Virus record (IMG/VR): IMGVR_UViG_3300021091_000245
Location: 1-32,819 of that record
Source: a virus
Reading direction: 5' to 3' (one strand)
Length of the DNA: 32,819 bases
In this document: piece by piece, positions 23,001 through 32,819 of the stretch
Position numbering within the stretch: position 1 is the first letter of the stretch
Layout of the letters: every line of letters begins with the position of its first letter
The notes under the pieces: model-generated
Told to the model about the DNA's origin: nothing
Seen by the model: only the letters and a program-made list of their open reading frames with translations
The model's database searches: none
Translations under genes and position numbers: made by a program

Positions 23001-25853
23001 AGAAGTTTGGTCATTATTAATGTATAATTTATTTCCTATTGAGAAATTAGATGGACTATCTTCTACTGTGCATAACGTAATATTACCTTCTGTGGTAGAT
23101 TCTACGATTACATTAGCATTAATCCCGTTTGCTGGGGTATCTTGAGTTTTTAATCTTCTTGATTTTGATGGAATGTTATTTTGATTAATTTTTGCCACAT
23201 AATTAGATTCTACTGGTATCGAGTAAAATCTTTCTCCAATAATATATGGGAATACTGGAGTGTTAGTGGAATCAACCGTTACGAAATATGCATAAGTGCC
23301 ATTTGGATAATCTGGAGTTACGCAATATCTACCATTGTTTTCGTCCAAACTACCAAATCTATGTTGATAACGATAATCTTCTGTGAAACTTCCTAGGGGA
23401 TAATCTGATAGATTTGGTCCACCGTCTCTAGATGTTTTTAATCTATAACTAGATGTCATTCTAGATATAGATGAATTTGGATTCAGTGGATTTTCGTAAG
23501 CATATGGACCATAGATGGGATTGCCATCATATGCATACCCAAGAATAGGTGAATGCTTGGATGCATCATTATCCAACAAAAGATTTCTTAATGCTACTGG
23601 ATTTGCTACATGTGCATAACCATATCCGAAAGATTTTTCAATATTTTCAAATAAATATCCGTTATTGTTATCTAACTTTGGTATACCAATTCTATTCTTT
23701 AATCTATCATATCTATTATTTTTCCATCTCTTTACGAATGCGGATGCAGTAGCATCTCTTCCGATAGGAATTACTTCTACACTAATATTTTCTTGAGTGT
23801 AAAACTTGCCTTCACTGATTTTATTAAATCCAATTAACTTACCATCTGTTGAAATAATTGAAGTATATTCAGCTAATCTACCATTATTAGTTCTATCTTT
23901 GATAAAAATTAATGGGGGGGTTGAATAATATTCTCCTGGATTAACAATTGTAAGCTTAGTTACTTTGTCTTTAGTGACAGTTGCCGACACTTGAGCGCCT
24001 CTACCAGAAGTTATAGTTACGCTTGGATTTCTCTCAAATTTTTCACCAGGATTAATTACTTCGATTCTTTCTAACACTTCTCCAGAAAGAATTGCTCTTG
24101 CCTTTGCTTCCTTGTCACCCTCTATCAAGACGTATGGTGGATTTTTATATCCTTTACCCTTATTTGTTACATTAATAGTCTCTACGCCACCAAAAATCAC
24201 ATCTTGACTATCATAGTCTTTATATCCATATGCTAAAACGCCATTCAAGAAAATACCAATGTCTCTAGTTGGAGTTGGATATAACTCAGTATTTCTTATT
24301 GCTTCTTTTCTAATTAATTTAAGATTCTTCTGATCAGAAGGTGTCAATGTAACAAAATTGCCAATATTATAGGATGGCAATCCAGAAGATGCAATGTAGT
24401 AGTATTGATCGTCTTCGTAAATAGCTGATATGTCAGTCAATACTTCTTCTAGTCCAGAAATATTGCTACCAGTAGTATCACTATTCAACAACCATCTAAC
24501 AGATGAAGATAATTTATTGTATATAACTGGATTTCTAGTTTCAAATCCAGAATCACTTATTTGTATTTCATCGCCTTCGGTTGAATATGGTTGACCAGAA
24601 GAAACAGACACTCCATATAAAACACCATAACATAAAAATGAAACATTTTTCTCAATACCATCTTCTACATATTTTGCAGAAAGATTACTGTAATTTAATA
24701 CCTGAGTATTTTTAGGATAATCGCCACTAATGGCGCTATTTCCTCCAGACCTACTATCAATAACAAATTGATTGACATTCTTATCTTTAAATGTGAATGT
24801 CTCAGATCCTATTCTTATCTTTCCCTTGACATTTTTCCAACCAGAAGTGGAAAAAACATTAATTCTATTATCTGTAGAAGAAGATGGGAGTAATCTTTTG
24901 GTCAAAAATGTCTTTTGTGCTACAGAAAACTCTCCAACAACTGTTTCTGGAGCTAAAATGACTTCATAAATGCTTTCGCCATCAAAATTGCCAAGAAAAT
25001 TAACATTATCAATAATTGCAAATGCATTTTTTACGGAAGAATTATATACATCTTCCTCTTGATATAATTTTTCGCCAATTACTTTAAAAGGATCACCAGA
25101 TATTACTTTTACACGAAGAGATAATTTATTAATCCAATCCGATGTTGAAGATTTTAACGTATTATCCTTTGGATAATAAATTTCTGGAATATCTAACCCA
25201 TCTTGAGTTATTAATGAGTTGAATATGAATTTTATAGACTGCTCAGTGCCTTTAGACCTATAAAATTGCTTAATATTCTTAATTAGTGTTCTTTTATCAA
25301 TCTCTTTTTTTAAAGATTCTTCGGGGAAAGATGCGAGGTATTGTGTTTCGTAATTTTTAACAAAAGCATATAAAAATAGATTGCTAATGTTGTATATTTG
25401 AGCACCAGAAAGATGATTTACTCCATTACCATAATTACCGACTTTATATGTCGATGTATTATATAAATCACCTAGTTTTGTAGTGCCACTAACATTTCTA
25501 ACACATCCAATGAATGAATTAGCTGTTTTTTCAGCATAAAATATTACTTCATCATCAATCATCACATATCCATTCTTTTCTGGGAATGCATAAGTGTCTT
25601 CGACAAATATTACTGTATCGGAATCTAATACATTAGAAGTAATATGAGTATATTCTGATAAAATTTTTTTTTCGTAAGTATCAATGTCAGCATAATTAGA
25701 TAGATTGTTAATAATATCTAAAGATTGCCCAGTTAACTCCAAATGCTCATAGTATTTCTGTATAAATGCAGAAAACTTTGGATATTCGGTTGAAATAAAT
25801 TCTGGTAGTTGATTATCAACTAAAGTAGAAATTCTTTTCTTAGCTACCGACAT
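17001..25853 (-). CDS. 7: Giant baseplate wedge protein at the gp7 position, with YHYH-type motif (2950 aa)
   Basis: Lies between gp6 and gp8, the place of T4 gp7 (1032 residues) but nearly three times as long. The N-terminus has LPEFISTEYPKFSAFIQKYY (15-34) and LIKNIKQFYRSKGTEQSIKF (about 196-215), the conserved core of cyanophage gp7-like proteins. GYAYDGNPIYGPYAYENP near residue 770 matches the YHYH-domain motif. Several repeat families are visible: 'GYxMIDDEVIFYAE...FIGCVR' at 95-119, mirrored by 'GKLLIGNEIITYTD...FIGCVR' at the C-terminus; two triplets of a 'NPGekYxxpPxv.i' repeat near 566-640 and 1685-1766; and three 'DGVxQ...tPPxxGq' repeats near 2090, 2185 and 2280. The gp7 identity rests on gene order and the N-terminus; roles of the inserts are unknown. 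Only 4 bases separate it from gp6. Confidence 0.75.
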   Translation of the reverse strand: MSVAKKRISTLVDNQLPEFISTEYPKFSAFIQKYYEHLELTGQSLDIINNLSNYADIDTYEKKILSEYTHITSNVLDSDTVIFVEDTYAFPEKNGYVMIDDEVIFYAEKTANSFIGCVRNVSGTTKLGDLYNTSTYKVGNYGNGVNHLSGAQIYNISNLFLYAFVKNYETQYLASFPEESLKKEIDKRTLIKNIKQFYRSKGTEQSIKFIFNSLITQDGLDIPEIYYPKDNTLKSSTSDWINKLSLRVKVISGDPFKVIGEKLYQEEDVYNSSVKNAFAIIDNVNFLGNFDGESIYEVILAPETVVGEFSVAQKTFLTKRLLPSSSTDNRINVFSTSGWKNVKGKIRIGSETFTFKDKNVNQFVIDSRSGGNSAISGDYPKNTQVLNYSNLSAKYVEDGIEKNVSFLCYGVLYGVSVSSGQPYSTEGDEIQISDSGFETRNPVIYNKLSSSVRWLLNSDTTGSNISGLEEVLTDISAIYEDDQYYYIASSGLPSYNIGNFVTLTPSDQKNLKLIRKEAIRNTELYPTPTRDIGIFLNGVLAYGYKDYDSQDVIFGGVETINVTNKGKGYKNPPYVLIEGDKEAKARAILSGEVLERIEVINPGEKFERNPSVTITSGRGAQVSATVTKDKVTKLTIVNPGEYYSTPPLIFIKDRTNNGRLAEYTSIISTDGKLIGFNKISEGKFYTQENISVEVIPIGRDATASAFVKRWKNNRYDRLKNRIGIPKLDNNNGYLFENIEKSFGYGYAHVANPVALRNLLLDNDASKHSPILGYAYDGNPIYGPYAYENPLNPNSSISRMTSSYRLKTSRDGGPNLSDYPLGSFTEDYRYQHRFGSLDENNGRYCVTPDYPNGTYAYFVTVDSTNTPVFPYIIGERFYSIPVESNYVAKINQNNIPSKSRRLKTQDTPANGINANVIVESTTEGNITLCTVEDSPSNFSIGNKLYINNDQTSGFGLIAEVSKLKGKNILSIESKETKAAKIVSKKPVYFFNQSIITQEGTNASGEVVGNIFSADTFVLRNISGNFDTINKLNSSVRVLNLIVDTESFYTKDAFVRLTSGKEVVILSITTNTLRVAFNPFTNGDGISFARSSNGIIENKIYYVINASSSNFQISETQNGSPVSLINSSSFGVVATSEIARGTILEQVISGNTLKVKVDDGNFITSRDFYLKSEIIDDTIGSRIFQIDELSKNIEIFSINNNISLVTTDEDHNLTLNDKVTIDIIPDDTETTTNYYVRKRIYQTIKLFPPVINTAVSDTGIGTVKRLNSGEDYANAGSATFTNVELIFSDQTKTRDENGLLTTPEKSHVGGPGAPGNAKATITVSNGRVSENGVVITTKGSGYQIGDILTVSNTSLNRLSGSLSQSYLFLEVTHVGFGKNNTILRVSDIRNFSSGDVIKINQENIRVDSVSNINKTLTVTRSFNNTIRENHFNGDAISFVTAKYLFNEGDTLGGSSNSPIVKSYDEITQELTVYFDINQTLESISPLSFNSSFFDSGSPSKLVSVDSVVAQPSYKFEFSKYNESGPWLINPIIPIQKYYRYNFITKHPSLAGSFLEFSPSINKNILTTESIRGNALPGSGDDTSSYISVKFGFGDASPSNNYDVKESVDFRNYYYFDKAAIVDSSNSYLLLQDDPLQGEKTVTYVSPRSFAYEMNFTPEYDGHGVFSYSTNSIFAEGQIESVSIVNTGKLYKKIPTVHGVLPNSNNLCEAEISYDEKNTVIESISILKPGKNYSKPKVILETDNDLLLLNFDVTVGNSGEIIAIKLLNPDRKFNKKPEIYVIESDVKIFFGSKNVGYPKNLKVIYNGSNYYNDTTLSSVFTSHQILTIKNFDENSFVNGEIIKQFENGFLIAEGRIAKDGFDSKRNFLKVEKVKGEFRKNLIISGNLKRKTALVTDNFVTLFNPDIKSYYDNTGYYDTAKGQLSSSNQRLSDSYFYQDYSYVVKSKTPINIWRKLVEQTVHPSGFKMFGEVNIDAEAKTSMPSRQNVTSSVSIIELWDETTNRVTIENTRQQITQTIVRYKDTNIRRGKGSVLVSGIDTTELLSYVFELQQPFDGDFDESGNIVGRRTFNMILPGFGVLNVFNPNNLFVTIDGVMQNPGTTFTVSGSTITFATPPLGQRISNNQIIEPQKFVGRMIRFKNNDFNSRYFKKIKNIDNDFNGIETRFPLFYEDGTDVVLDAKENLLVSLDGVVQENKMTPLIPATSSYYIDRTVTPNHIVFIDAPRKLDDVNRSKFFAYSIGNYERLEIDPELFDSQTKGPFLLRRVLDRRTVTVDNDRTVLVFVEGVLQIRNRAYTITGSDIFFAEPPKPGQIINIIYLYGKESTPKLTFYNFENNKFFNKVDIISSAFISNDQLQKYDTVYQGTSIKDWDSIGEVLTSFASTDSQGNPTIRIIIKQQNYKFSPSQPLKLSSYKSPVQEFIIYPEDIVSITDYEKDDEQNELVFKTKSGWMYGTELSPVYSNNLDVGDLIQVDGERDYRSILLIPEVLKKLGHRRDDLIENNHYGQIGVTTYNGIVDGVGLSVFASVSNGEISSLTWNRRKYERYASIIDSGIIVPKTVFTRNSIIELSDQTIVELRNGINLKIINKTASVVAIKKADIQPSAFGYRETPDLVFVPQPLRDTYGNIIGPVSGGGASGFVVMNGGEIIDVVLTNKGSGYVTPPKVYVTRGYNVYKSPQKVINSSTDLVLSPKITLDTALYTQITITIDGKLTPNIETVIDVQSSYDSTNPTIIITPPEYDVTCTENQKQITSILNLEAAQIDSITNISYQRISEFYFDPIVTTIDYIIRNTTLRYDFGFVDVYDGIQNQAKYNYGKLGNRFEVYENIKFMTDYGVADVSEQNTLEMMELHYPNITIGDFSDRHSSSVGQNGAIWDITWPSIQEHGALLDSSLSSLDDIVYIPDTSRFPSSGKLLIGNEIITYTDKLSDRFIGCVRGAENTVVQTHNPGDYLRSLS

Positions 25854-25857
25854 TTAA

Positions 25858-27678
25858 CTACTCTTGAATGATTGTGAATTTACTTTTTGTGATATCTACA
25901 TCTAAAAACATTTCTCTAGTAGATACGATATCATTAATTAATGGATTGACGCGAATCTCGATTTTATCATCATTGAAACTTCCTTTGATAATAGTCAAAT
26001 CATACATCATTATTTCGCCCTTTCCATAATTAACTTTACCTAGATTTGAGTTAACTACTACCTTTTCACCAGTTATACTATCTAATTTATACAAAACTAA
26101 TTTGCCTTGTCTATCTTCTATAAAAACGGTGTCTAGAGGAAACTCTCTTACAGTAAAACCAGTACTGGTGATAGATGGTTCATCATCTTGAATGAAAGGA
26201 TTCTTAAAGCATATTTCATAATAAAACTTTGAATTTAATGCAGGATAGAAATCCTTACGCATAGTTATAGTAGTCAAGTTTGACTTGATAGAAGCGTCAG
26301 AATCGTCAATAACACCAACAAACTTACTGTAACGGAATTTGCCATTAAATTTTTCTGTATCTGATAATTGTATATAATCTTCAATATTCTTGATTGCTAA
26401 TTCTTTTATTTTATCTGACTTATATGTAGTGAGAGTAGTGTCATAGTATATTTTTGAATCCATCTCAACATATAATATTGATGGGTCTACAACTCGTGGA
26501 GTAACTGAAGCAACTGCGTATTTTTTGAGTGCTTTTTCAATTTCTTTTTTAGTAAATGAAGTCAGATAAGTTGCATACTTAGGTTTGATGACAATTTTAA
26601 CAACACCATACTCAGGGGGGTCATCTTCTTCTCCTCCGAATGCTGTTATATCAGCTACTGAAGGATATACACTCCTCACAATTGCTCTATAATCTTCGCT
26701 AGTTACTGCTCTATCTTGCGTAGCATAATTCTTTGCGGCATTGAATTTGATTCTATCGATAGATTCTGAGAATTCACCGCCAGAAGAAGGTGATACAGTA
26801 ATTAAATTTGTAATCGTTAAGTTATAATTATTGGATAACGTGTCAGTGGAGTTTAAATCTTCAACAATTGCACTAAAAGTAAATACTCTTGCTCCATTTG
26901 TTTCTGGACCTGGAGTAACCAAATATGAAATTTCTACATATTCGCCATTTTCAAGTTTCCTCCCAAATACACCATCTCCAAACTGTAATTCATAATTTTC
27001 GTCTTCGATTTCAGTTAGAAAGAATACTTTACTTTCGGGATTAACATTTAAAATATTTTCTGCATAATCATAAGTATCAAAATACCCATTTGGGTAAGAT
27101 TGTGTAGATTTAAATACTCTGACTTTAATTGTATTTGTATCTACGTTTACATTTTTAATTAAAAATCTTTGATTTCTTAAAGAATTGTTAACTACATGAT
27201 AATCAGTGATTATATTACCAGAATAAATTTCTAAATTGCTGAAAGAAGCAACACCATTATTCACCGTTGCCCTTGCATCTTCTAAAATACTGTATTGATA
27301 CGCAGAATTTTCAAAAAACGATGAAAATGCGGATCCTCTTCGTATAACAACAGTATTCGGTTTATTTTCAGAAATGTAAGTTAATTCTAGGTTTACAACT
27401 GCTTTTGATGCTGTAGCAGATTTAGGTCTGTATCCTAATTGCTTAGCTATTGCTACAACATTGTCACGTAAAGTTGCTGAACTTAAAAACATTTCATTCA
27501 CCACCATGTTGGTGTTGAATGCAGTATAATAAGTATTGTATGCTAACAGATCAATCAAAGCACTAAGAGCACTTCCTTCAAAATCATAGTCAGTAAACTC
27601 TGATTGCGCTCTTAGATACTCTCTGAGCGAAGTTTTAATGTTATTAAAATCTAATTGATTTAACTGAGAGTATGGCAT
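25858..27678 (-). CDS. 6: Baseplate wedge protein gp6
   Basis: A 606-residue protein starting MPYSQLNQLDFNNIKTSLRE, with 'DYDFEGSALSALIDLLAYNT' at 33-52, the hallmark opening of T4-type gp6. Residues 320-420 (TSEDYRAIVRSVYPSVADIT, then VVKIVIKPKYATYL) carry the baseplate-J-like part of the protein. gp6 dimers form the ring that holds the wedges together, so it is essential to baseplate structure. Length is near that of T4 gp6 (660). It starts 3 bases after gp25 ends and is followed 4 bases later by the gp7-like gene, so gp25-gp6-gp7 is one unit. Confidence 0.9.
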   Translation of the reverse strand: MPYSQLNQLDFNNIKTSLREYLRAQSEFTDYDFEGSALSALIDLLAYNTYYTAFNTNMVVNEMFLSSATLRDNVVAIAKQLGYRPKSATASKAVVNLELTYISENKPNTVVIRRGSAFSSFFENSAYQYSILEDARATVNNGVASFSNLEIYSGNIITDYHVVNNSLRNQRFLIKNVNVDTNTIKVRVFKSTQSYPNGYFDTYDYAENILNVNPESKVFFLTEIEDENYELQFGDGVFGRKLENGEYVEISYLVTPGPETNGARVFTFSAIVEDLNSTDTLSNNYNLTITNLITVSPSSGGEFSESIDRIKFNAAKNYATQDRAVTSEDYRAIVRSVYPSVADITAFGGEEDDPPEYGVVKIVIKPKYATYLTSFTKKEIEKALKKYAVASVTPRVVDPSILYVEMDSKIYYDTTLTTYKSDKIKELAIKNIEDYIQLSDTEKFNGKFRYSKFVGVIDDSDASIKSNLTTITMRKDFYPALNSKFYYEICFKNPFIQDDEPSITSTGFTVREFPLDTVFIEDRQGKLVLYKLDSITGEKVVVNSNLGKVNYGKGEIMMYDLTIIKGSFNDDKIEIRVNPLINDIVSTREMFLDVDITKSKFTIIQE

Positions 27679-27681
27679 TGA

Positions 27682-28080
27682 TTATCTCGTTCTTTGTAGA
27701 ATAAATTCTGTAGATAATGGAGAATTTAAACTTTCTCTACCTATAATTTCAAATTCAATGTAGACTTCATAACTGTTTGTGTCAAAATTTGGAGTTACTT
27801 CTACTTGAAGTAAATTAACTCGTGGCTCATATCTTTCAATTACAAGTCTAATTTCATCCTGAAGACTAGATGAGGTTGCGTAATCTAGTAATTCAAATAA
27901 CAAATCTGCTATTCTAGTACCAAGTAATGAGTTAAATGGTCTTTCACCTGGCTTTGTTAATACTAAATTTTGCAAAGCATTTTTAATGGCAGTTTCATTT
28001 TTAACCACCACCAAATCTTTTGTATTTGGGTGTGCCCCAAAGGCAACACTTATGTCTTTAAAAGTTTGAAAGGTGGGCAT
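27682..28080 (-). CDS. 25: Baseplate wedge protein gp25
   Basis: 132 residues, the same length as T4 gp25, with the GPW/gp25-family pattern. VKNETAIKNALQNLVLTKPG (27-46) is followed by ERPFNSLLGTRIADLLFELL, then the helix LQDEIRLVIERYEPRVNLLQ and an EFEI strand near the end. gp25 is the small wedge protein that links the wedge to the tube-sheath junction and helps start sheath assembly. The 'GERPfnp.lG..i..llFE' core is clearly visible. It has a late-like box (GATAAATA) 24 bases upstream and leads the gp25-gp6-gp7 unit. Confidence 0.93.
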   Translation of the reverse strand: MPTFQTFKDISVAFGAHPNTKDLVVVKNETAIKNALQNLVLTKPGERPFNSLLGTRIADLLFELLDYATSSSLQDEIRLVIERYEPRVNLLQVEVTPNFDTNSYEVYIEFEIIGRESLNSPLSTEFILQRTR

Positions 28081-28104
28081 GAATACACCACTACTAGTCC
28101 AAAG

Positions 28105-28112
28105 TATTTATC
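28105..28112 (-). promoter_or_regulatory. T4-type late promoter box (GATAAATA) before gp25
   Basis: The minus strand reads GATAAATA, one base from TATAAATA, 24 bases before the gp25 ATG in an 84-base intergenic gap. It is a good candidate to drive the baseplate operon. Confidence 0.55.
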
Positions 28113-28164
28113 AGACTAATGACGGAGTTTCTTGCCCACCAGAGGTTTTATGTCGGAGACCCGC

Positions 28165-28362
28165 TCATAACCATTCTACATAGTCATCAAACCCATCTTT
28201 ACCACCACACCACTTTTCCATGCGGTTTTCAGGGATTTTATACTTCTGCATATGTGCTTTTCTCAGTAATGCATCACTTCTGGGGTCTGTAATAAGCACA
28301 GAAGTGCCGAAATCCTTCTGCATCATCGAAGGCACATTATCTGGAATTGGTTTGTTAGCCAT
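28165..28362 (-). CDS. Hypothetical protein (65 aa)
   Basis: Starts MANKPIPDNVPSMMQKDFGT and ends KDGFDDYVEWL. It is a mixed-charge, probably soluble protein with one Cys (KWCGG) and no motif that I recognise. The start is supported by GGAGCAAACAG just before the ATG, a good ribosome site. It is the last gene of the short group that begins at the sigma70-type promoter at 29026-29054, and it is followed by gp25 under a separate late promoter. An early or middle role is possible but not shown. Confidence 0.65.
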   Translation of the reverse strand: MANKPIPDNVPSMMQKDFGTSVLITDPRSDALLRKAHMQKYKIPENRMEKWCGGKDGFDDYVEWL

Positions 28363-28405
28363 CTGTTTGCTCCATAAGGGTTAAACAGAACTTTTAGAGG
28401 GGTTG

Positions 28406-28861
28406 CTATCCCTGTTTTTTCACTAAATCGTAGTCATCACCGAGAATTTCGCGCATATAATCGTCATCCCAGTAGTCATAATATTTGATATTACTCAGAA
28501 TTTTGCGGAATTGTCTCAATTTTGCTTTAGGCTGCGCTAAAATTAGGTTGTAAAGTCCGTTGTTACTCTGAATTTCGCCAACAAAACTGATTTTTTCCGC
28601 ACAATCTTCAAAAAACTCCCAATCTTCCCATATTTTGTTGTAAGATTCGACCCATTCTAGTATATCTTCAACGCTGTGATAATCTTCTACAATAAAAATG
28701 ACGACATCGTAACCTTCAATAGGCTCGATATCGTCAATTTGACACTCTACAATTTTATATTTTGCGGTCGAGGCATAGGGACAGACTGCAAAACCACCCA
28801 ATTCTGGGCGTAGTATCGATACTTTGTGTATCCATTCCCTAATATGTGCCTCTTTATTCAT
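28406..28861 (-). CDS. Hypothetical cyanophage protein (151 aa)
   Basis: A soluble, acidic, aromatic-rich protein: MNKEAHIREWIHKVSILRPE, then LGGFAVCPYASTAKYKIVEC, then strand-like YDVVIFIVEDYHS, a helix EDILEWVESYNKIWEDW, and an acidic tail (YYDYWDDDYMREILGDDYDL). The 'W...V....LGGF.vCPYA' segment somewhat resembles DUF1415 proteins, which share a Cys-Pro-Phe/Tyr motif, but the match is too weak to assign. The ATG overlaps the stop of the basic 47-residue gene by one base (TAATG), and AAGGGA lies upstream as ribosome site. The two genes are likely co-translated. Function unknown. Confidence 0.75.
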   Translation of the reverse strand: MNKEAHIREWIHKVSILRPELGGFAVCPYASTAKYKIVECQIDDIEPIEGYDVVIFIVEDYHSVEDILEWVESYNKIWEDWEFFEDCAEKISFVGEIQSNNGLYNLILAQPKAKLRQFRKILSNIKYYDYWDDDYMREILGDDYDLVKKQG

Positions 28862-29004
28862 TAATTCCCTTGACCACGATAACGCTTTTTGCGTCCATTA
28901 CGTGCAGTAGCAGCAAGATTTGTATTTTTACTGCGCCCTTGACGAGTGCATTTGGGTTTTCCTGGAATATAACTGGACTTATTAAAACTAGGAGACTTTG
29001 CCAT
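28861..29004 (-). CDS. Very basic small protein (47 aa)
   Basis: A short gene of 47 residues, starting MAKSPSFNKSSYIPGKPKCT and ending GRKKRYRGQGN. It is rich in Lys and Arg, with a single Cys. I associate the pattern 'SFNKSSYiP.KPk...KKRYrGQG' with a small protein conserved in T4-like cyanophages; its function is unknown to me. The composition suggests nucleic-acid binding. It is the first gene after the sigma70-type promoter at 29026-29054, and its stop overlaps the next ATG by one base. The strong promoter and tight coupling support it as a real gene despite its size. Confidence 0.75.
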   Translation of the reverse strand: MAKSPSFNKSSYIPGKPKCTRQGRSKNTNLAATARNGRKKRYRGQGN

Positions 29005-29025
29005 ACAGTTTAAACAACTAAAGAT

Positions 29026-29054
29026 ATTATACCACAGATTAATCAGTCTGCCAA
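29026..29054 (-). promoter_or_regulatory. Sigma70-type promoter TTGGCA - 17 bp - TATAAT
   Basis: The minus strand has TTGGCA (29049-29054), a 17-bp spacer and TATAAT (29026-29031). The -35 lies in the last codons of the PAAR gene, and the ATG of the 47-residue gene is 22 bases beyond the -10. Hexamers and spacing are near ideal for host RNA polymerase, which suggests early or constitutive transcription of the 47-, 151- and 65-residue genes inside a late region. Confidence 0.7.
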
Positions 29055-29363
29055 GACATCTTGAGATCCAGTAGAAATTTGCCCTAGGTCTGCAGAGTCG
29101 CCAATTCTTGCTAATGGTCTTCCATTTACAAATACTTTTGTGCTTCCTATGTTAACTTTTTGCCCTAGGTGGGGTATACAAGGTGGTATAGGAGGACTAG
29201 CAGGATTTGTAATTGTATGTGGACTTAACTGTGTATCTTTTAATGCTGCTAATTTGCCATTAATAAACACATTCGTAGCACTTCCTAGCGTAGAGATAGT
29301 AGTAGTCGTATCACATCTGTGACCAGTATTTACAGTGTCTCCGACTCTTGCAACTCCTGGCAT
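29043..29363 (-). CDS. PAAR-motif baseplate spike tip protein
   Basis: 106 residues, starting MPGVARVGDTVNTGHRCDTT, with INGKLAALKDTQLSPHTI and CIPHLGQKVNIGSTKVFVNG following. The regular 'vfiNGkpaariGD' repeats with His and Cys residues (H15, C17, H49, C62, H65) are the PAAR pattern: a small beta cone that binds a metal ion and sharpens the tail spike. T4 gp5.4 (97 residues) is the counterpart. It lies a few genes upstream of gp25, consistent with baseplate context. It overlaps the preceding gene by 34 bases, and its end holds the -35 of a downstream promoter. Confidence 0.88.
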   Translation of the reverse strand: MPGVARVGDTVNTGHRCDTTTTISTLGSATNVFINGKLAALKDTQLSPHTITNPASPPIPPCIPHLGQKVNIGSTKVFVNGRPLARIGDSADLGQISTGSQDVLAD

Positions 29364-29488
29364 ATTTCTAATTGATTCTCTAATTTATTTAGACGATTAT
29401 ATAAGACATCCAATGCTGTAGGTAAACTTTTATAGTCTTCTCCAGGTGGTCGATATTCCAAAATAAAAGGATCAGGAATCTTCGCCAT
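29330..29488 (-). CDS. Hypothetical protein upstream of PAAR (52 aa)
   Basis: Starts MAKIPDPFILEYRPPGEDYK and ends with a coiled-coil-like helix (ALDVLYNRLNKLENQLEICQ). I chose the ATG at 29488 because it overlaps the previous gene by only 17 bases and has AGAGAAGAGG just before it. The same frame is open to an ATG at 29602, which would give 90 residues and add another helix (LSEILKLLENFSERLNYLEK) but overlap the neighbour by 131 bases. The added helix is itself heptad-like, so the longer form cannot be ruled out. It is not recognised as any known family; a helper of the adjacent PAAR tip is possible. Confidence 0.6.
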   Translation of the reverse strand: MAKIPDPFILEYRPPGEDYKSLPTALDVLYNRLNKLENQLEICQELQESETL

Positions 29489-29786
29489 CCTCTTCTCTAA
29501 GTAGTTGAGCCTCTCTGAGAAATTCTCTAGCAGTTTCAATATCTCGCTCAACTTCTGATCCGTCGTCTGATACATCACTTCCTCCAAAACTACTTGTATC
29601 ACTATAAATCACTTCACCATTTTCTTTTCTTTCTATAGAAATCATATCACCTGAATCTTGTAACCCAGAATACCATTTATCTGCAGCATCTAGCATATAA
29701 TCTGCAACTGCATCAAAATCATTAAAAGAAAGATTTTCAATAACCTTTCCATCTTTACCAACAATTTTAAATCCAAATTCAGTCAT
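29472..29786 (-). CDS. Acidic hypothetical protein (104 aa)
   Basis: Starts MTEFGFKIVGKDGKVIENLS, with a helix DAVADYMLDAADKWYSGL and a strongly acidic second half (SDVSDDGSEVERDIETA) ending EEDGEDS. I recognise no family. The ATG at 29786 is preferred; a TTG three codons earlier would add MSK. A GAG six bases before the ATG is a weak ribosome site. It begins 18 bases after the AbrB-like gene ends. Acidic small proteins of this type are frequent among phage accessory genes, but nothing here shows what it does. Confidence 0.65.
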   Translation of the reverse strand: MTEFGFKIVGKDGKVIENLSFNDFDAVADYMLDAADKWYSGLQDSGDMISIERKENGEVIYSDTSSFGGSDVSDDGSEVERDIETAREFLREAQLLREEDGEDS

Positions 29787-29803
29787 TTTACTCAAAGCAA
29801 TAA

Positions 29804-29959
29804 TTATTCTTTTCTTAACATAATGCTATCGTCATCTGAATATTCCCATTTTAAAACGTCACCTTCAACCCAACCTAAAGAATCTAACAGATCTTCGGGA
29901 ATGGGCATAATATACTCATCATTTAAATCATCATATTCAATTTGACTCACAAACTTCAT
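29804..29959 (-). CDS. AbrB/MazE-like small DNA-binding protein (51 aa)
   Basis: A short gene of 51 residues, starting MKFVSQIEYDDLNDEYIMPI, then PEDLLDSLGWVEGDVLKWEY and ending SIMLRKE. The 'ymlPIPeDLLdsLGW.eGDvLkWe' pattern is the swapped-hairpin AbrB/SpoVT/MazE fold, used by small DNA-binding regulators and antitoxins. The fold call is from this pattern; target and partner are unknown. Its ATG overlaps the stop of the preceding gene (ATGA), so the two are translationally coupled. No toxin is recognisable next to it, so a transcription regulator is as likely as an antitoxin. Confidence 0.75.
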   Translation of the reverse strand: MKFVSQIEYDDLNDEYIMPIPEDLLDSLGWVEGDVLKWEYSDDDSIMLRKE

Positions 29960-30171
29960 AGTTCATCCTCTACTGGTTGATTTGTATCAAAATCAGGAAT
30001 AATGACTTCGCATTCTAATGTAGAGGTTTTCTTAGCTTCGTTTACTTTTGTCTTCGCACTAAAGACTTTTGCTTCTCTCTTAATAGCTGACCAAGAGCCT
30101 GATTCGGTCATGTATACTTTACCACCTGTAAGAATTTTAGATGGATTGGTTGCTCTTAAAATGTAATCCAT
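29956..30171 (-). CDS. Hypothetical protein (71 aa)
   Basis: Starts MDYILRATNPSKILTGGKVY and contains GSWSAIKREAKVFSAKTKV and a strand-like LECEVIIPDFDTNQ, ending VEDEL. It is a mixed beta/charged soluble protein of no family I can name. It follows the 83-residue gene by 4 bases and its stop overlaps the ATG of the AbrB-like gene, so the three probably form one transcript. The position directly before an AbrB-like gene makes a toxin-like role conceivable, but no toxin motif is visible. Confidence 0.65.
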   Translation of the reverse strand: MDYILRATNPSKILTGGKVYMTESGSWSAIKREAKVFSAKTKVNEAKKTSTLECEVIIPDFDTNQPVEDEL

Positions 30172-30175
30172 ATTT

Positions 30176-30427
30176 TTAGTCTACGTATGTTATGAAATCT
30201 TTGGGAGTTTTGCGTTCTGGCAATTGCACAGACTCGTTATATTCATTCCGAGATCTAATCAAATCTGCTGCTCTATATAGGGCCGCGGATACTTCCACTC
30301 TTTTGTCATTCATTGCAAATGCTTGACAAATCTTCTCACATTCGCGCCTTTCAAATTCTTCCGCTGCTTTTATATATTCAATAAATCCGACCTTCTCGGC
30401 AATCTCGTATAAGTCCTGTTTAGTCAT
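30176..30427 (-). CDS. Helical hypothetical protein (83 aa)
   Basis: Starts MTKQDLYEIAEKVGFIEYIK, then EFERRECEKICQAFAMNDKR and VSAALYRAADLIRSRNEY. It is mostly helical with two Cys residues, and I recognise no family. It is the most upstream AT-rich phage gene here and heads the run down to the PAAR gene. A TATAAATT sequence (30445-30452) is 17 bases before the ATG, a candidate but imperfect late box; no clear ribosome site is seen. Its start marks the edge of the AT-rich phage block. Confidence 0.65.
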   Translation of the reverse strand: MTKQDLYEIAEKVGFIEYIKAAEEFERRECEKICQAFAMNDKRVEVSAALYRAADLIRSRNEYNESVQLPERKTPKDFITYVD

Positions 30428-30444
30428 GGTGAAATAATAAAGAT

Positions 30445-30452
30445 AATTTATA
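30445..30452 (-). promoter_or_regulatory. Possible late promoter box (TATAAATT)
   Basis: The minus strand reads TATAAATT, one base from TATAAATA, 17 bases before the ATG at 30427. The spacing is shorter than for the other late boxes in this window (24-49 bases), so support is modest. Confidence 0.35.
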
Positions 30453-30653
30453 TATGCTTGACAGGTGTTTCAGTTCTGTGCTATTTGTGATTGTGCCCCC
30501 TACTGTAATTAACACACAGGGTTATGAACACAACTCCTCTAAAAAGTCCTGTAAGGAGAGTGTTGTGGATCTTTTTCTATTCTCTGTGCGACGCACGACG
30601 GGTGACTGCACCCCATAAAATTCTTCCGAGTTCTTTTGAAGTCATCAGAATAT

Positions 30654-30699
30654 ACCCCACTTGCTCTCTTAGCGTTGTTTGAGTTGGTGGGGTTTTTTT
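30654..30699 (+). terminator. Terminator-like hairpin with T-tract (plus strand)
   Basis: ACCCCAC (30654-30660) pairs with GTGGGGT (30687-30693), with an inner CTC/GAG pairing, and the plus strand continues as TTTTTTT. The form is a rho-independent terminator for plus-strand transcription, yet no plus-strand gene lies upstream. It may end a small RNA or simply separate two blocks. Confidence 0.45.
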
Positions 30700-30814
30700 G
30701 AGAATTTTTTCTGGGAAAAATTTTTTAAATGAAAGCGTTATCATGAGAGCGTTTTCAAAGTTTTGTAGGTTAATAGTATCTATCAATTTTCCTTTTCGCT
30801 CGGCCGCCCCTAGT

Positions 30815-30849
30815 ACAAACAAACGCCCCCCGACCACTGCCGAGGGGCG
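30815..30849 (-). terminator. Intrinsic terminator closing the GC-rich block
   Basis: On the minus strand CGCCCCTCG (30841-30849) pairs with CGGGGGGCG (30824-30832), nine pairs with one G-U, across an eight-base loop, followed by TTTGTTTGT. It lies 29 bases after the stop codon at 30878. Confidence 0.75.
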
Positions 30850-30877
30850 CTGAGGTGTGCTAGGATGGGCGACTGCC

Positions 30878-31144
30878 TCAGAAGTTGCAGGCGAGGCGCT
30901 CGGTGTCCCACATGCCAGCGGCACGGTCAGCAGCAGCAGCACGGCGATCTGCTCGTGCCTGAGCAGCGAAGCGGGCAGCGTTGGCGATCTTGTCGCCTGT
31001 CCACTGCCTGCCCAGTCCCACCACGGGGGTGATGGTGAAGGCGCGTCCGCTGCCTGCCGACCCGTTGACGGGGCAGGTGCCCTTCAGGCATCCGTCGCCG
31101 TTGGCGATCTGTCCTTTGGTCTGGCGTGAGTTGGGGCGAAGCAT
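30878..31144 (-). CDS. Hypothetical protein, GC-rich block (88 aa)
   Basis: Starts MLRPNSRQTKGQIANGDGCL, then CPVNGSAGSGRAFTITPVVG, and an Ala/Arg-rich helix (AARFAAQARADRRAAAADRA), ending TERLACNF. It has three Cys residues and a basic, Ala-rich C-terminal half. I recognise no family. GC-rich codon use contrasts with the phage genes to its left. It has its own leader with TATACT 22 bases upstream and a strong terminator after it, so it looks like a complete single-gene unit. The terminator, promoter and codon pattern support it as real. Confidence 0.6.
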   Translation of the reverse strand: MLRPNSRQTKGQIANGDGCLKGTCPVNGSAGSGRAFTITPVVGLGRQWTGDKIANAARFAAQARADRRAAAADRAAGMWDTERLACNF

Positions 31145-31394
31145 GGTAGGTCTGTTGTGTGGTCTTAGTATAGCACCCCCCCAGGGGGAGGGGGGGGGTC
31201 AGTCCCCCAGAACCCAGGTCGCCAAGTTCGCCTGCGTCGAGTCGCTGATTCATCAGTGCCCACCACGGGGAGTCGATGAAGGCGTCGAGCAAACCCTGGT
31301 GGTGGATGAAGCGGAGACCCTCCAACCAGGAGACGGTGCCATCCCACTCAGCAGAGGCGAGGAAGTCATCCCACAGGGTCACGTCGTTGGTCAT
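30927..31394 (-). CDS. Hypothetical protein, 3' end doubtful (gene-like part 31199-31394)
   Basis: Starts MTNDVTLWDDFLASAEWDGT, then SWLEGLRFIHHQGLLDAFID and SPWWALMNQRLDAGELGDLG. These first ~63 residues look like a real soluble protein. As sequenced, the frame then runs through a poly-C tract and across the promoter and most of the next gene to 30927, giving 155 residues whose tail is low-complexity and implausible. One base fewer in the five-G run at 31204-31208 would end the protein at TGA (31199-31201) after 'GSGD'. I therefore regard the real end as about 31200 and suspect a homopolymer error or a true frameshift. No family recognised. TACAAT lies 26 bases before the ATG. Confidence 0.45.
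   Translation of the reverse strand: MTNDVTLWDDFLASAEWDGTVSWLEGLRFIHHQGLLDAFIDSPWWALMNQRLDAGELGDLGSGGLTPPLPLGGCYTKTTQQTYHASPQLTPDQRTDRQRRRMPEGHLPRQRVGRQRTRLHHHPRGGTGQAVDRRQDRQRCPLRCSGTSRSPCCCC
31167..31172 (-). promoter_or_regulatory. Extended -10 box TGC-TATACT
   Basis: The minus strand reads GGTGCTATACTAAG, with TATACT 22 bases before the ATG at 31144. The TG one base before the hexamer gives an extended -10. No -35 is seen. It belongs to the repeated leader family of this block. Confidence 0.5.
31176..31198 (-). terminator. GC-only hairpin between two small genes
   Basis: On the minus strand nine Cs, T, five Cs, T and seven Gs allow a C7/G7 stem with loop TCCCCCT. It abuts the -10 box of the next gene. 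There is no T-tract, so termination is only possible, not shown. Confidence 0.35.
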
Positions 31395-31420
31395 CGGTCG
31401 GTTTCTTGGTTTACTCAGGA

Positions 31421-31426
31421 ATTGTA
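31421..31426 (-). promoter_or_regulatory. Extended -10 box TGC-TACAAT
   Basis: The minus strand reads TGTGCTACAATTCC, with TACAAT 26 bases before the ATG at 31394 and a TG extension. No clear -35. Its leader diverges most from the family but keeps the spacing. Confidence 0.45.
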
Positions 31427-31451
31427 GCACAGGATGGGGGGGGCGGTGCCC

Positions 31452-31850
31452 CTAGTCTTCAAACGTGGGGAGGGCAGCGAGCGCCTCTGCAGCGTAGCGG
31501 TCAGCGTGGGCACCTGCGAGCCAGGATGCCTCAACAGTGATGGGCACCTGCCGACCCATGGTCTGCTGTGCGTCGTCAGTGGGGCGACCTGCCCACACGA
31601 TCTGGCGGGTGCTCAGGTCAGAGGCGGGGGTGAGAATCATGGTAGGGTAGCGATGGGGTAGGGGGGGGGGGCACCCCCTCAGTCGGTCGCTGATGTTCCA
31701 GGTGCCCCAGGTGCCGCCGTTGGCGTGAGCGTCGCGGGTCTCGATTGCCTGCAGGCGCTCGGCGCTGGTGTAGCGATTCCACAGGTCGAGGTCGGTGCTC
31801 TGGTAGCAGTCAGACCAGATGCGGTTGGCGGTTTCGAGGGTCATGGTCAT
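31452..31850 (-). CDS. Hypothetical protein, possible fusion of two genes across a G11 tract (132 aa)
   Basis: As sequenced this is one frame of 132 residues, but it reads like two proteins joined by a proline-rich linker. The first part starts MTMTLETANRIWSDCYQSTD and runs to WGTWNISDRL (about residue 56). Then CPPPLPHRYP is encoded across a run of 11 Gs on the plus strand (31661-31671). The second part starts at the ATG at 31640 (MILTPASDLSTRQIVWAGRP) and ends AALPTFED. With a different run length the first gene could instead stop at a TGA overlapping that ATG (ATGA), a usual coupled pair. I recognise neither part. ATG 31850 is preferred to 31844 because it aligns with the other leaders (CGACCCATG). 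Confidence 0.5.
   Translation of the reverse strand: MTMTLETANRIWSDCYQSTDLDLWNRYTSAERLQAIETRDAHANGGTWGTWNISDRLRGCPPPLPHRYPTMILTPASDLSTRQIVWAGRPTDDAQQTMGRQVPITVEASWLAGAHADRYAAEALAALPTFED
31661..31671. repeat. Poly-G tract, 11 bases
   Basis: Eleven consecutive Gs on the plus strand inside the fused frame at 31452-31850. It is the longest of several G/C runs in this block (7 C at 31176, 9 G at 31190, 8 G at 31436). Such runs are prone to sequencing error and to replication slippage. Confidence 0.9.
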
Positions 31851-31874
31851 GGGTCGTTTCGTTTCGATGGAATC

Positions 31875-31880
31875 AGTCTA
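31875..31880 (-). promoter_or_regulatory. -10-like box TAGACT in repeated leader
   Basis: The minus strand reads GACCCTGTAGACTGATTCC, with TAGACT 24 bases before the ATG at 31850, followed by a leader ending ACGACCCATG. It overlaps the end of the previous gene closely (stop at 31886-31888). Confidence 0.5.
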
Positions 31881-31885
31881 CAGGG

Positions 31886-32062
31886 TCAGGGCATCTCGCA
31901 GGCGCCAGGGAGGACACTGTTGTAGGTGTCACAGCGGCGCTCGGTGGCGGCGTTGACGCTCTGCACAGTATCGGCGGCGAAGGAAACGGCGGCGCTGCCT
32001 GCTGCCATGATCGGACCGTAGAAGGCGGCACCGAGAATCAGGAGGGCGATGGTCTTGAGCAT
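31886..32062 (-). CDS. Small secreted or membrane-anchored protein (58 aa)
   Basis: A 58-residue protein starting MLKTIALLILGAAFYGPIMA, a clear signal-peptide-like start: one Lys, then a hydrophobic stretch to about residue 20 and Ala-rich residues to 30 that could hold a cleavage site. The short mature part has two Cys residues (RRCDTYN and GACEMP) that could form one disulfide outside the cytoplasm. No family recognised. A leader nearly identical to those of its neighbours precedes it. It could act at the cell envelope, for example in superinfection exclusion, but that is speculation. Confidence 0.6.
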   Translation of the reverse strand: MLKTIALLILGAAFYGPIMAAGSAAVSFAADTVQSVNAATERRCDTYNSVLPGACEMP

Positions 32063-32089
32063 GGGTCGTCTCGTGTGGTTGATGCTGTT

Positions 32090-32095
32090 AGTCTA
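32090..32095 (-). promoter_or_regulatory. -10-like box TAGACT in repeated leader
   Basis: The minus strand reads GACCCTGTAGACTAACAGC, with TAGACT 27 bases before the ATG at 32062; the leader continues ATCAACC and ends GAGACGACCCATG. Part of the repeated leader family. Confidence 0.5.
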
Positions 32096-32114
32096 CAGGG
32101 TCGTGGTCGGGTTG

Positions 32115-32134
32115 GGGGCGGCCGCGGCCACCCC
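32115..32134 (-). terminator. Long GC palindrome after the 55-residue gene
   Basis: GGGGCGGCCGCGGCCACCCC is nearly a perfect 20-base palindrome, 8 bases after the stop at 32143. It would form a very stable hairpin. No T-tract follows, so it may be a terminator-like or RNA-stabilising element. Confidence 0.45.
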
Positions 32135-32142
32135 GTCGATTG

Positions 32143-32310
32143 TCACATGCCGTTGAGGAAGTCTGCCATCGCTTCCTGGTACTCGTCGTAGGTCTTGAAG
32201 CGGTCAGCGAAGCAAGCGGGCACCTTGCCATCGAACTTCTGGGGCTCGGGCAGGTCGCGTCCCTTGGCGAGGATCTGGGCTTCGTAGACGTTGGGGTTGT
32301 AGCGGGTCAT
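32143..32310 (-). CDS. Hypothetical protein (55 aa)
   Basis: A short gene of 55 residues: MTRYNPNVYEAQILAKGRDL, then PEPQKFDGKVPACFADRFKT, ending YDEYQEAMADFLNGM. It is soluble, with one Cys, and I recognise no named family. The regular composition, a leader matching its neighbours (TAGACT 24 bases upstream) and a palindrome just after the stop support it as a real gene. GC-rich third codon positions set it apart from the phage genes at left. Confidence 0.6.
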   Translation of the reverse strand: MTRYNPNVYEAQILAKGRDLPEPQKFDGKVPACFADRFKTYDEYQEAMADFLNGM

Positions 32311-32334
32311 GGTCTCGTGTGTGTTGATGTGGTT

Positions 32335-32340
32335 AGTCTA
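32335..32340 (-). promoter_or_regulatory. -10-like box TAGACT in repeated leader
   Basis: The minus strand reads GACCCTCTAGACTAACCAC, with TAGACT 24 bases before the ATG at 32310; the leader then ends ACACGAGACCATG. Confidence 0.5.
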
Positions 32341-32357
32341 GAGGGTCAGGCGAGGGA

Positions 32358-32383
32358 TGGGGGGCAGTAGGGTGCCACCCCCT
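32358..32383 (-). terminator. GC hairpin after the NYETW gene
   Basis: On the minus strand GGGGGTGGCACCC is followed by a C-run, allowing a GGGGG/CCCCC stem or a short GGGT/ACCC stem. It lies 7 bases after the stop at 32390. Terminator function is uncertain without a T-tract. Confidence 0.35.
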
Positions 32384-32389
32384 CAGGTG

Positions 32390-32647
32390 TCACAGGTCTG
32401 CCATCATCTGATTCATCTCCACGTCGCAGATCTTGGAGTCGTCCCACGCTACGCCGTCAGGGGTCTGCCCGAGCATCCGCCCGATCTGTCCCTCCATCAT
32501 GCAGCGCACGAACTTCTGCCACGGGGTCTCGTCAGCACCGCAGAAGGTCACGCACGCCTTAGCGGTATTGTAGAGGAACTCGTCATTCTGCATCCAGAGG
32601 GAAGCGTTCCAGGTTTCGTAGTTTGCCCAACCGTTGTAGGTCGTCAT
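32390..32647 (-). CDS. DUF7249-like NYETW-motif protein (85 aa)
   Basis: Starts MTTYNGWANYETWNASLWMQ. The 'NGW.NYETW...LW..Nd..lY' motif is shared by a family (DUF7249-like) of small proteins in phages and bacterial mobile DNA. The rest is FLYNTAKACVTFCGADETPW, then a helical part ending MNQMMADL. It has four Cys residues. The family has no established function that I know of. I chose the ATG at 32647 because the motif begins at once and the repeated leader (CATACT 27 bases upstream, ending GAGACAACCCATG) precedes it; the open frame extends further up but in non-coding-like sequence. Confidence 0.78.
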   Translation of the reverse strand: MTTYNGWANYETWNASLWMQNDEFLYNTAKACVTFCGADETPWQKFVRCMMEGQIGRMLGQTPDGVAWDDSKICDVEMNQMMADL

Positions 32648-32674
32648 GGGTTGTCTCGTTTGGTTGATGCTGTT

Positions 32675-32680
32675 AGTATG
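32675..32680 (-). promoter_or_regulatory. Extended -10 box TGC-CATACT in repeated leader
   Basis: The minus strand reads GGGGTGCCATACTAACAGC, with CATACT 27 bases before the ATG at 32647 and a TG extension. A small hairpin (ACCCC/GGGGT, 32683-32697) directly precedes it. Confidence 0.5.
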
Positions 32681-32712
32681 GCACCCCTTGATGGGGTTTG
32701 GGGCGATTGGTG

Positions 32713-32730
32713 GACAGTGCCTCAACTGTC
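32713..32730 (-). terminator. Small hairpin at the end of the partial gene
   Basis: GACAGT (32713-32718) and ACTGTC (32725-32730) are perfect inverted repeats with a six-base loop, overlapping the stop at 32729. There is no T-tract. Confidence 0.35.
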
Positions 32731-32819
32731 ACAGGATCTGCAGGTCGTCAAGGATGACCCCATCCTTCCGAATCTCAGCGTAGACGAACTCGTCTGCCTT
32801 GATGGCGAGCAGGCGCTGC
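32729..32819 (-). CDS. C-terminal fragment of a hypothetical protein (partial, 5' end outside window)
   Basis: About 30 codons of the end of a gene entering from the right edge: RLLAIKADEFVYAEIRKDGV, then ILDDLQIL and TGA. The fragment is strand-like with alternating hydrophobic residues and too short to identify. The context of its stop (CTGTGACA) resembles that of the NYETW gene (CTGTGACA), which hints that these genes share 3' sequence as well as leaders. Confidence 0.5.
   Translation of the reverse strand, partial: QRLLAIKADEFVYAEIRKDGVILDDLQIL

Follow-up and report, generated by a model that had tools for sequence, protein, structure and literature searches.

The window, the whole stretch of DNA that was analysed, is one virus record of 32,819 bases, in which a T4-like cyanophage late region closes the left 30.8 kb and an island of small GC-rich genes takes up the right end (Table 1). 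A two-segment maximum-likelihood fit over positions 25000-32819 places the change point at 30796, with a G+C content of 0.337 to the left and 0.626 to the right (log-likelihood gain 255), and the third-codon-position G+C is 0.81 in the island genes versus 0.25 in the late genes. The abrupt step from AT-rich to GC-rich DNA reported in the preliminary description is real (34% to 63% G+C), and the line counts given there are exact (20 of 60 bases at 25381-25440 and 39 of 60 at 32461-32520). The step exists, but the true boundary is about 370 bp to the right of 30428, the start given there for the region: the segment 30428-30796 still belongs to the AT-rich side, and it contains a 55-aa minus-strand ORF, absent from the first list, together with a conserved element. 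Long G/C runs (homopolymers of at least six) are indeed found six times in the right 2 kb, but the statement that they never occur at the left is slightly overstated, because the left 30.8 kb has two.

Table 1. Features of the late block, the boundary element and the GC-rich island in the window.
Feature	Position	Strand	Basis or remark
gp6-like baseplate wedge gene	25858-27678	-	ORF; collinear with gp6 of S-PM2 and S-RSM4
gp25-like baseplate wedge gene	27682-28080	-	annotated gp25 genes matched by tblastn; start preceded at 32 nt by late box GATAAATA
PAAR-motif protein gene	29043-29363	-	PF05488, E 1e-14; late box TCTAAATA upstream
83-aa gene, last listed of late block	30176-30427	-	ORF; relatives at same place in loci L103 and L104
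55-aa ORF, first gene after element, begins MITLSFKKFFPEK...	30577-30744	-	relatives in L103, L104, L109 and L125; phrog_31136, E 2.4e-4
Conserved non-coding element on composition boundary, start region of late-side genes	about 30700-30815	-	21-mer and HMM matches
Invariant core TAACCTACAAA (TTTGTAGGTTA on + strand)	30762-30772	-	
Conserved block GCCGAGCG (CGCTCGGC on + strand)	30797-30804	-	contains composition change point
Terminator-like hairpin closing the island's last gene	30822-30851	-	
Island gene, 88 aa	30878-31144	-	leader with TATACT-type -10 box
132-aa ORF combining two island genes	31452-31850	-	separate genes in relatives
Island gene, 58 aa	31886-32062	-	leader CTGTAGACTAACAGCATCAACCACACGAGACGACCC
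Island gene, 55 aa, phrog_649	32143-32310	-	leader with TAGACT box
Island gene, DUF7249, phrog_871	32390-32647	-	PF23907, E 1.1e-34; leader with CATACT box

In the late block, the best match of the gp25-like protein is that of Synechococcus phage Sf-FR1 (53.8%). A back-translated search for the 83-aa gene gave no match, though L103 and L104 contain relatives just left of the junction. The late block also encodes a MazE/AbrB-type antitoxin-like protein at 29804-29959 on the minus strand (PF04014, E 6.7e-7), and in P-TIM40 an annotated AbrB/MazE protein is found at a similar place. A plus-strand noncoding RNA at 30478-30705, with a TTGACA-like promoter and a hairpin with a T-run, was considered and dropped, because this stretch is better read as the minus-strand 55-aa gene, which has relatives; the fold z-score of the candidate is only -1.9 and no Rfam match was obtained.

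The island is built of cassettes with a sigma70-like -10 box and an A+C-rich leader, usually without a Shine-Dalgarno sequence. Over all related loci, this combination precedes 23.7% of the island-side ORFs versus 1.7% of the late-side ORFs, a 14-fold difference which bears out the earlier remark that gene style changes at the boundary. The DUF7249 leaders of 85 relatives have in common a -10 box, placed near -30, and a stretch rich in A+C ahead of the ATG, for example CATCAACCAAACGAGACAACCC; a Shine-Dalgarno-like sequence is seen in 15 of the 85. A degenerate leader pattern scanned in ten genomes gave one match, the leader being too variable for such a pattern. Close to position 30815, where a terminator had been proposed, there is a minus-strand terminator-like hairpin (30851-30822). 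The island genes are mostly small and of unknown function, the common families being DUF7249 (75 loci), the '...WNISDRD' protein (60 loci) and phrog_6036 (34 loci). In the island of S-PM2 one gene is annotated as an anti-restriction protein, and the ArdA match is only sub-threshold. Two reading frames of the window are affected by G homopolymers. In the relatives of the 132-aa ORF the first gene ends with WNISDR[HD] and the next begins with MILSMASDL, and in the window the intervening stop is missing beside an 11-G homopolymer at 31661, so this ORF is either a real fusion or a sequencing error. At 30927-31430 (minus strand), an island-gene ORF starting near 31393 crosses a 9-G run at 31190 into the region of the next gene, and its 3' end is uncertain. 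Since many of the island genes carry sigma70-like -10 boxes and A+C-rich leaders, they are most likely transcribed early by the host RNA polymerase, and they may have a role in host takeover or anti-defence.

The conserved element on the boundary was observed once per genome, and its alignment behaves as that of non-coding DNA. The 21-mer GTTTTGTAGGTTAATAGTATC (30760-30780) occurs exactly in 46 viral contigs, whereas well under one contig would be expected by chance; several IMG/VR contigs come from one sample series and are not all independent, and distinct sequences were counted where relevant. At the 21-mer, the G+C content climbs from 31-45% to 47-69% in the contigs whose flanks allow the comparison. 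Eighty IMG/VR loci were picked solely for encoding the DUF7249 island gene, and most of them also contain baseplate-side sequence in the same order and orientation. With an HMM built from the 21-mer contigs, most of the remaining loci show a single element located between the DUF7249 gene and the late genes, and in S-PM2 the element falls at the genome's own GC edge. A second form, TTTGTAGGTTAGG...CGCTYGGC, has at least 120 matches in the viral scan. All 18 loci of the window's subgroup have their fitted change point no more than 150 bp from the core, as do 40 of the 67 other loci. The element is upstream of gp25 in each of 15 isolate regions, two of which were fetched via the element itself; 10 of the 11 isolates that were neither fetched in this way nor used for HMM training have E values of at most 2.4e-4, and the remaining one, ACG-2014f, has the exact core with an E value of 0.47. 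Prochlorococcus phage P-TIM40 also carries the element. The GC step is strong in S-PM2, S-CAM9, S-WAM2, S-RSM4 and ACG-2014f and weak or absent in S-RIM2 and P-TIM40. The element is constant, and the composition of the island is variable.

Because the alignment was anchored on the core, the 11 columns of the core are necessarily invariant. Wider constraint is indicated by the neighbouring columns, which have 1.3-2 bits, and in the window's subgroup (36 distinct sequences) a longer stretch, GATACTATTAACCTACAAAACTTT, is invariant. No conserved RNA structure is present on either strand of the element (RNAalifold z-scores from -0.75 to 0.85), and no Rfam match was obtained. A host origin of the element was rejected: among the genomes of 84,980 prokaryote species, a 22-bp form of it is found in a single contig, which comes from a MAG and itself reads as the phage element. 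Locus L305 (PALY01000154.1), binned as Deltaproteobacteria, carries the phage element and is probably a misbinned cyanophage fragment. In S-PM2 (NC_006820), extra partial matches to the AT-rich end of the element (the GGGAAAAATTTTTT side) are seen at 154908-154944 and 164935-164967, away from the island. In the GenBank records of S-CAM4 and ACG-2014e/h/i/j a 'hypothetical protein' is annotated over the non-coding element, and this annotation is probably a spurious ORF. A text search of the open-access literature found no description of the element, and it is apparently an undescribed, highly conserved non-coding control element.

The geometry of the element is also preserved. In minus-strand orientation, the relatives that do not belong to the window's subgroup show an A-tract, TAACCTACAAA about 14 bp later, then, after 15 bp, a T4-type late box and, about 80 nt further on, an ORF. 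Of 121 distinct sequences from outside this subgroup, 110 have TAAATA at one exact offset from TAACCTACAAA, mostly within GATAAATA, GCTAAATA or ACTAAATA; in S-PM2, GATAAATA lies at about 25.1 kb of the record. Both subgroups have the A-tract, about 14 nt ahead of the core. An ATG-initiated ORF of at least 33 aa starts 20-160 nt downstream (median 80) for 115 of 118 elements; the corresponding counts are 48 for the island side and 28 for shuffled sequence. In the window and its subgroup no late box is found at the fixed offset, and most members of the subgroup have none within 700 nt; the promoter function of the window's element is therefore a prediction. Several isolates (S-RIM2, S-RIM12, ACG-2014a/b/d, P-TIM40, S-BM3 and DSL-LC02) have ATATAAAA instead, 13-14 nt beyond the far side of the core and in the place that the GCCAAGCGAAAA block takes in other phages, so that the arrangement differs while the spacing is again fixed. 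The late-side gene next to the element in DSL-LC02 lies on the opposite strand.

The T4-type late promoter has an 8-bp TATA box at -10, which is used by the gp55/gp33/gp45 system. The element resembles it in having, in most relatives, a TATAAATA-like box before the first late-side gene, followed by an AT-rich stretch, and it differs in the conserved 11-bp site at a fixed 15 bp upstream, in the A-tract and in the absence of the box at that place in the window's subgroup. The published late promoter of S-PM2 is NATAAATA (PMC2984593). Since T4 late promoters are said to lack conservation at -35 (PMC2988020), TAACCTACAAA at about -39 to -29 would be a variant of this promoter type. The core is not a general late-promoter feature: at that spacing it accompanies only 0-1 of the 66-80 other late boxes per genome.

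We consider it probable (at about 0.6 for the two statements jointly) that the change in composition marks a natural and conserved border, at which two transcriptional blocks of the T4-like cyanophage genome meet, and that the element is a late promoter region with an extra upstream site, heading the late operon at this boundary. The right block would then be a turnover-prone array of small minus-strand genes of high G+C, many of them with a sigma70-like -10 box and an A+C-rich leader of their own, which the host RNA polymerase would transcribe early, and the left block would be an AT-rich late operon with the PAAR, gp25 and gp6 genes. The single-copy DNA element would join the two at the head of the late block, in the order A-tract, TAACCTACAAA, late box (for most relatives not in the window's subgroup, GATAAATA or CTAAATA), AT-rich leader and first late-side start codon. 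Some phage or host factor may bind the extra site at about -39 to -29 and so start the operon, by transcription that would be late and may be gp55-dependent, and the terminator before the element would stop read-through from the island. More tentatively, and with clearly lower probability, the element may be the one master cis-acting DNA site of each T4-like cyanophage genome, at which a factor reads TAACCTACAAA and its fixed-spacing partners, separating the early and late blocks and triggering the baseplate operon (or replication), a control layer that is absent from T4.

The core is conserved despite the differing promoter arrangements, which leaves room for another DNA-level role. It is conceivable, although rather unlikely, that the element serves as an origin of replication or as some other DNA-maintenance (initiator-binding) site and coincides with a promoter by chance, the late box being incidental. 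T4 replication origins are promoter-associated and AT-rich, as is the element, and one copy per genome with long invariant stretches would suit such a site, as would its persistence where the surrounding promoter arrangement varies between phages. The cumulative GC-skew minimum of the window looked suggestive in this respect, but in whole genomes the skew tracks the coding strand, with no genome-wide turn at the element, although this is a weak test for a T4-like phage with several origins. The AT-richness nearby is also not extreme, as 2.5-5% of the genome windows rank lower in G+C.

Slightly less likely still is that the element acts in RNA, as a leader governing the translation or stability of the first late-side gene. 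A start codon is adjacent in nearly all cases, and in the phages with ATATAAAA upstream the core could be transcribed, but neither strand has a conserved fold, and where the late box is downstream of the core, transcripts from this box would exclude the core.

The preliminary description had proposed either a recently acquired island next to the baseplate cluster or two genomes joined in assembly, and had suggested that related cyanophage genomes be searched for the same junction. Many independent IMG/VR contigs and isolates have it. A GC-rich small-gene array upstream of the gp25/gp6 baseplate operon is present in S-PM2, S-RSM4, S-WAM2, S-CAM9 and many IMG/VR contigs, and the island does adjoin the baseplate cluster, with the same layout in S-PM2 and most DUF7249 loci. 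S-PM2 matches the GC-rich part of the window at 88.6% identity (megablast), and its copy, likewise upstream of gp25/gp6, falls in 21.0-25.25 kb; nowhere else in that genome do 1-kb windows reach 50% G+C. The similarity of locus L032 to the window covers both sides and runs through 30705-30805, where the identity is 87% versus about 70% in the flanking late genes. A single recent insertion of the GC-rich block in the window's phage, with the element marking its end, would account for the difference in third-position G+C and in gene style, but it is very improbable, because the position is identical across many phages and samples while the gene content turns over, and because the element is also present beside a region that is not GC-rich in S-RIM2 and P-TIM40. 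The boundary with its conserved element recurs across T4-like cyanophages, and the island is an old, position-fixed and fast-changing block of cassettes. An assembly chimera, suggested by the abruptness of the step, is refuted by L032, L103, L104, L109 and L095, which come from other samples and match both sides and across the junction, and by the cultured phages that share the layout.

The island resembles the 'ORFanage' of S-PM2 and the hyperplastic regions of cyanomyoviruses in being a variable stretch of small database orphans, and the S-PM2 island sits within the published ORF002-ORF078 range (PMC2984593). It differs in that its limits define a GC-rich sub-block, which has leader signals of its own and, at one edge, a conserved element; according to a review, the ORFanage itself is not general in cyanomyoviruses (PMC2984593). 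Cyanomyoviruses are without the T4 transcription-ordering factors Alt, ModA/B, MotA and AsiA, and the way in which they control early and middle transcription is described as unknown (PMC2984593). With the composition jump explained as a block boundary, quality filters should not mistake such steps for chimeras, and a family-wide single-copy element with invariant bases and fixed spacing to late boxes offers a concrete site for pull-down and reporter work.
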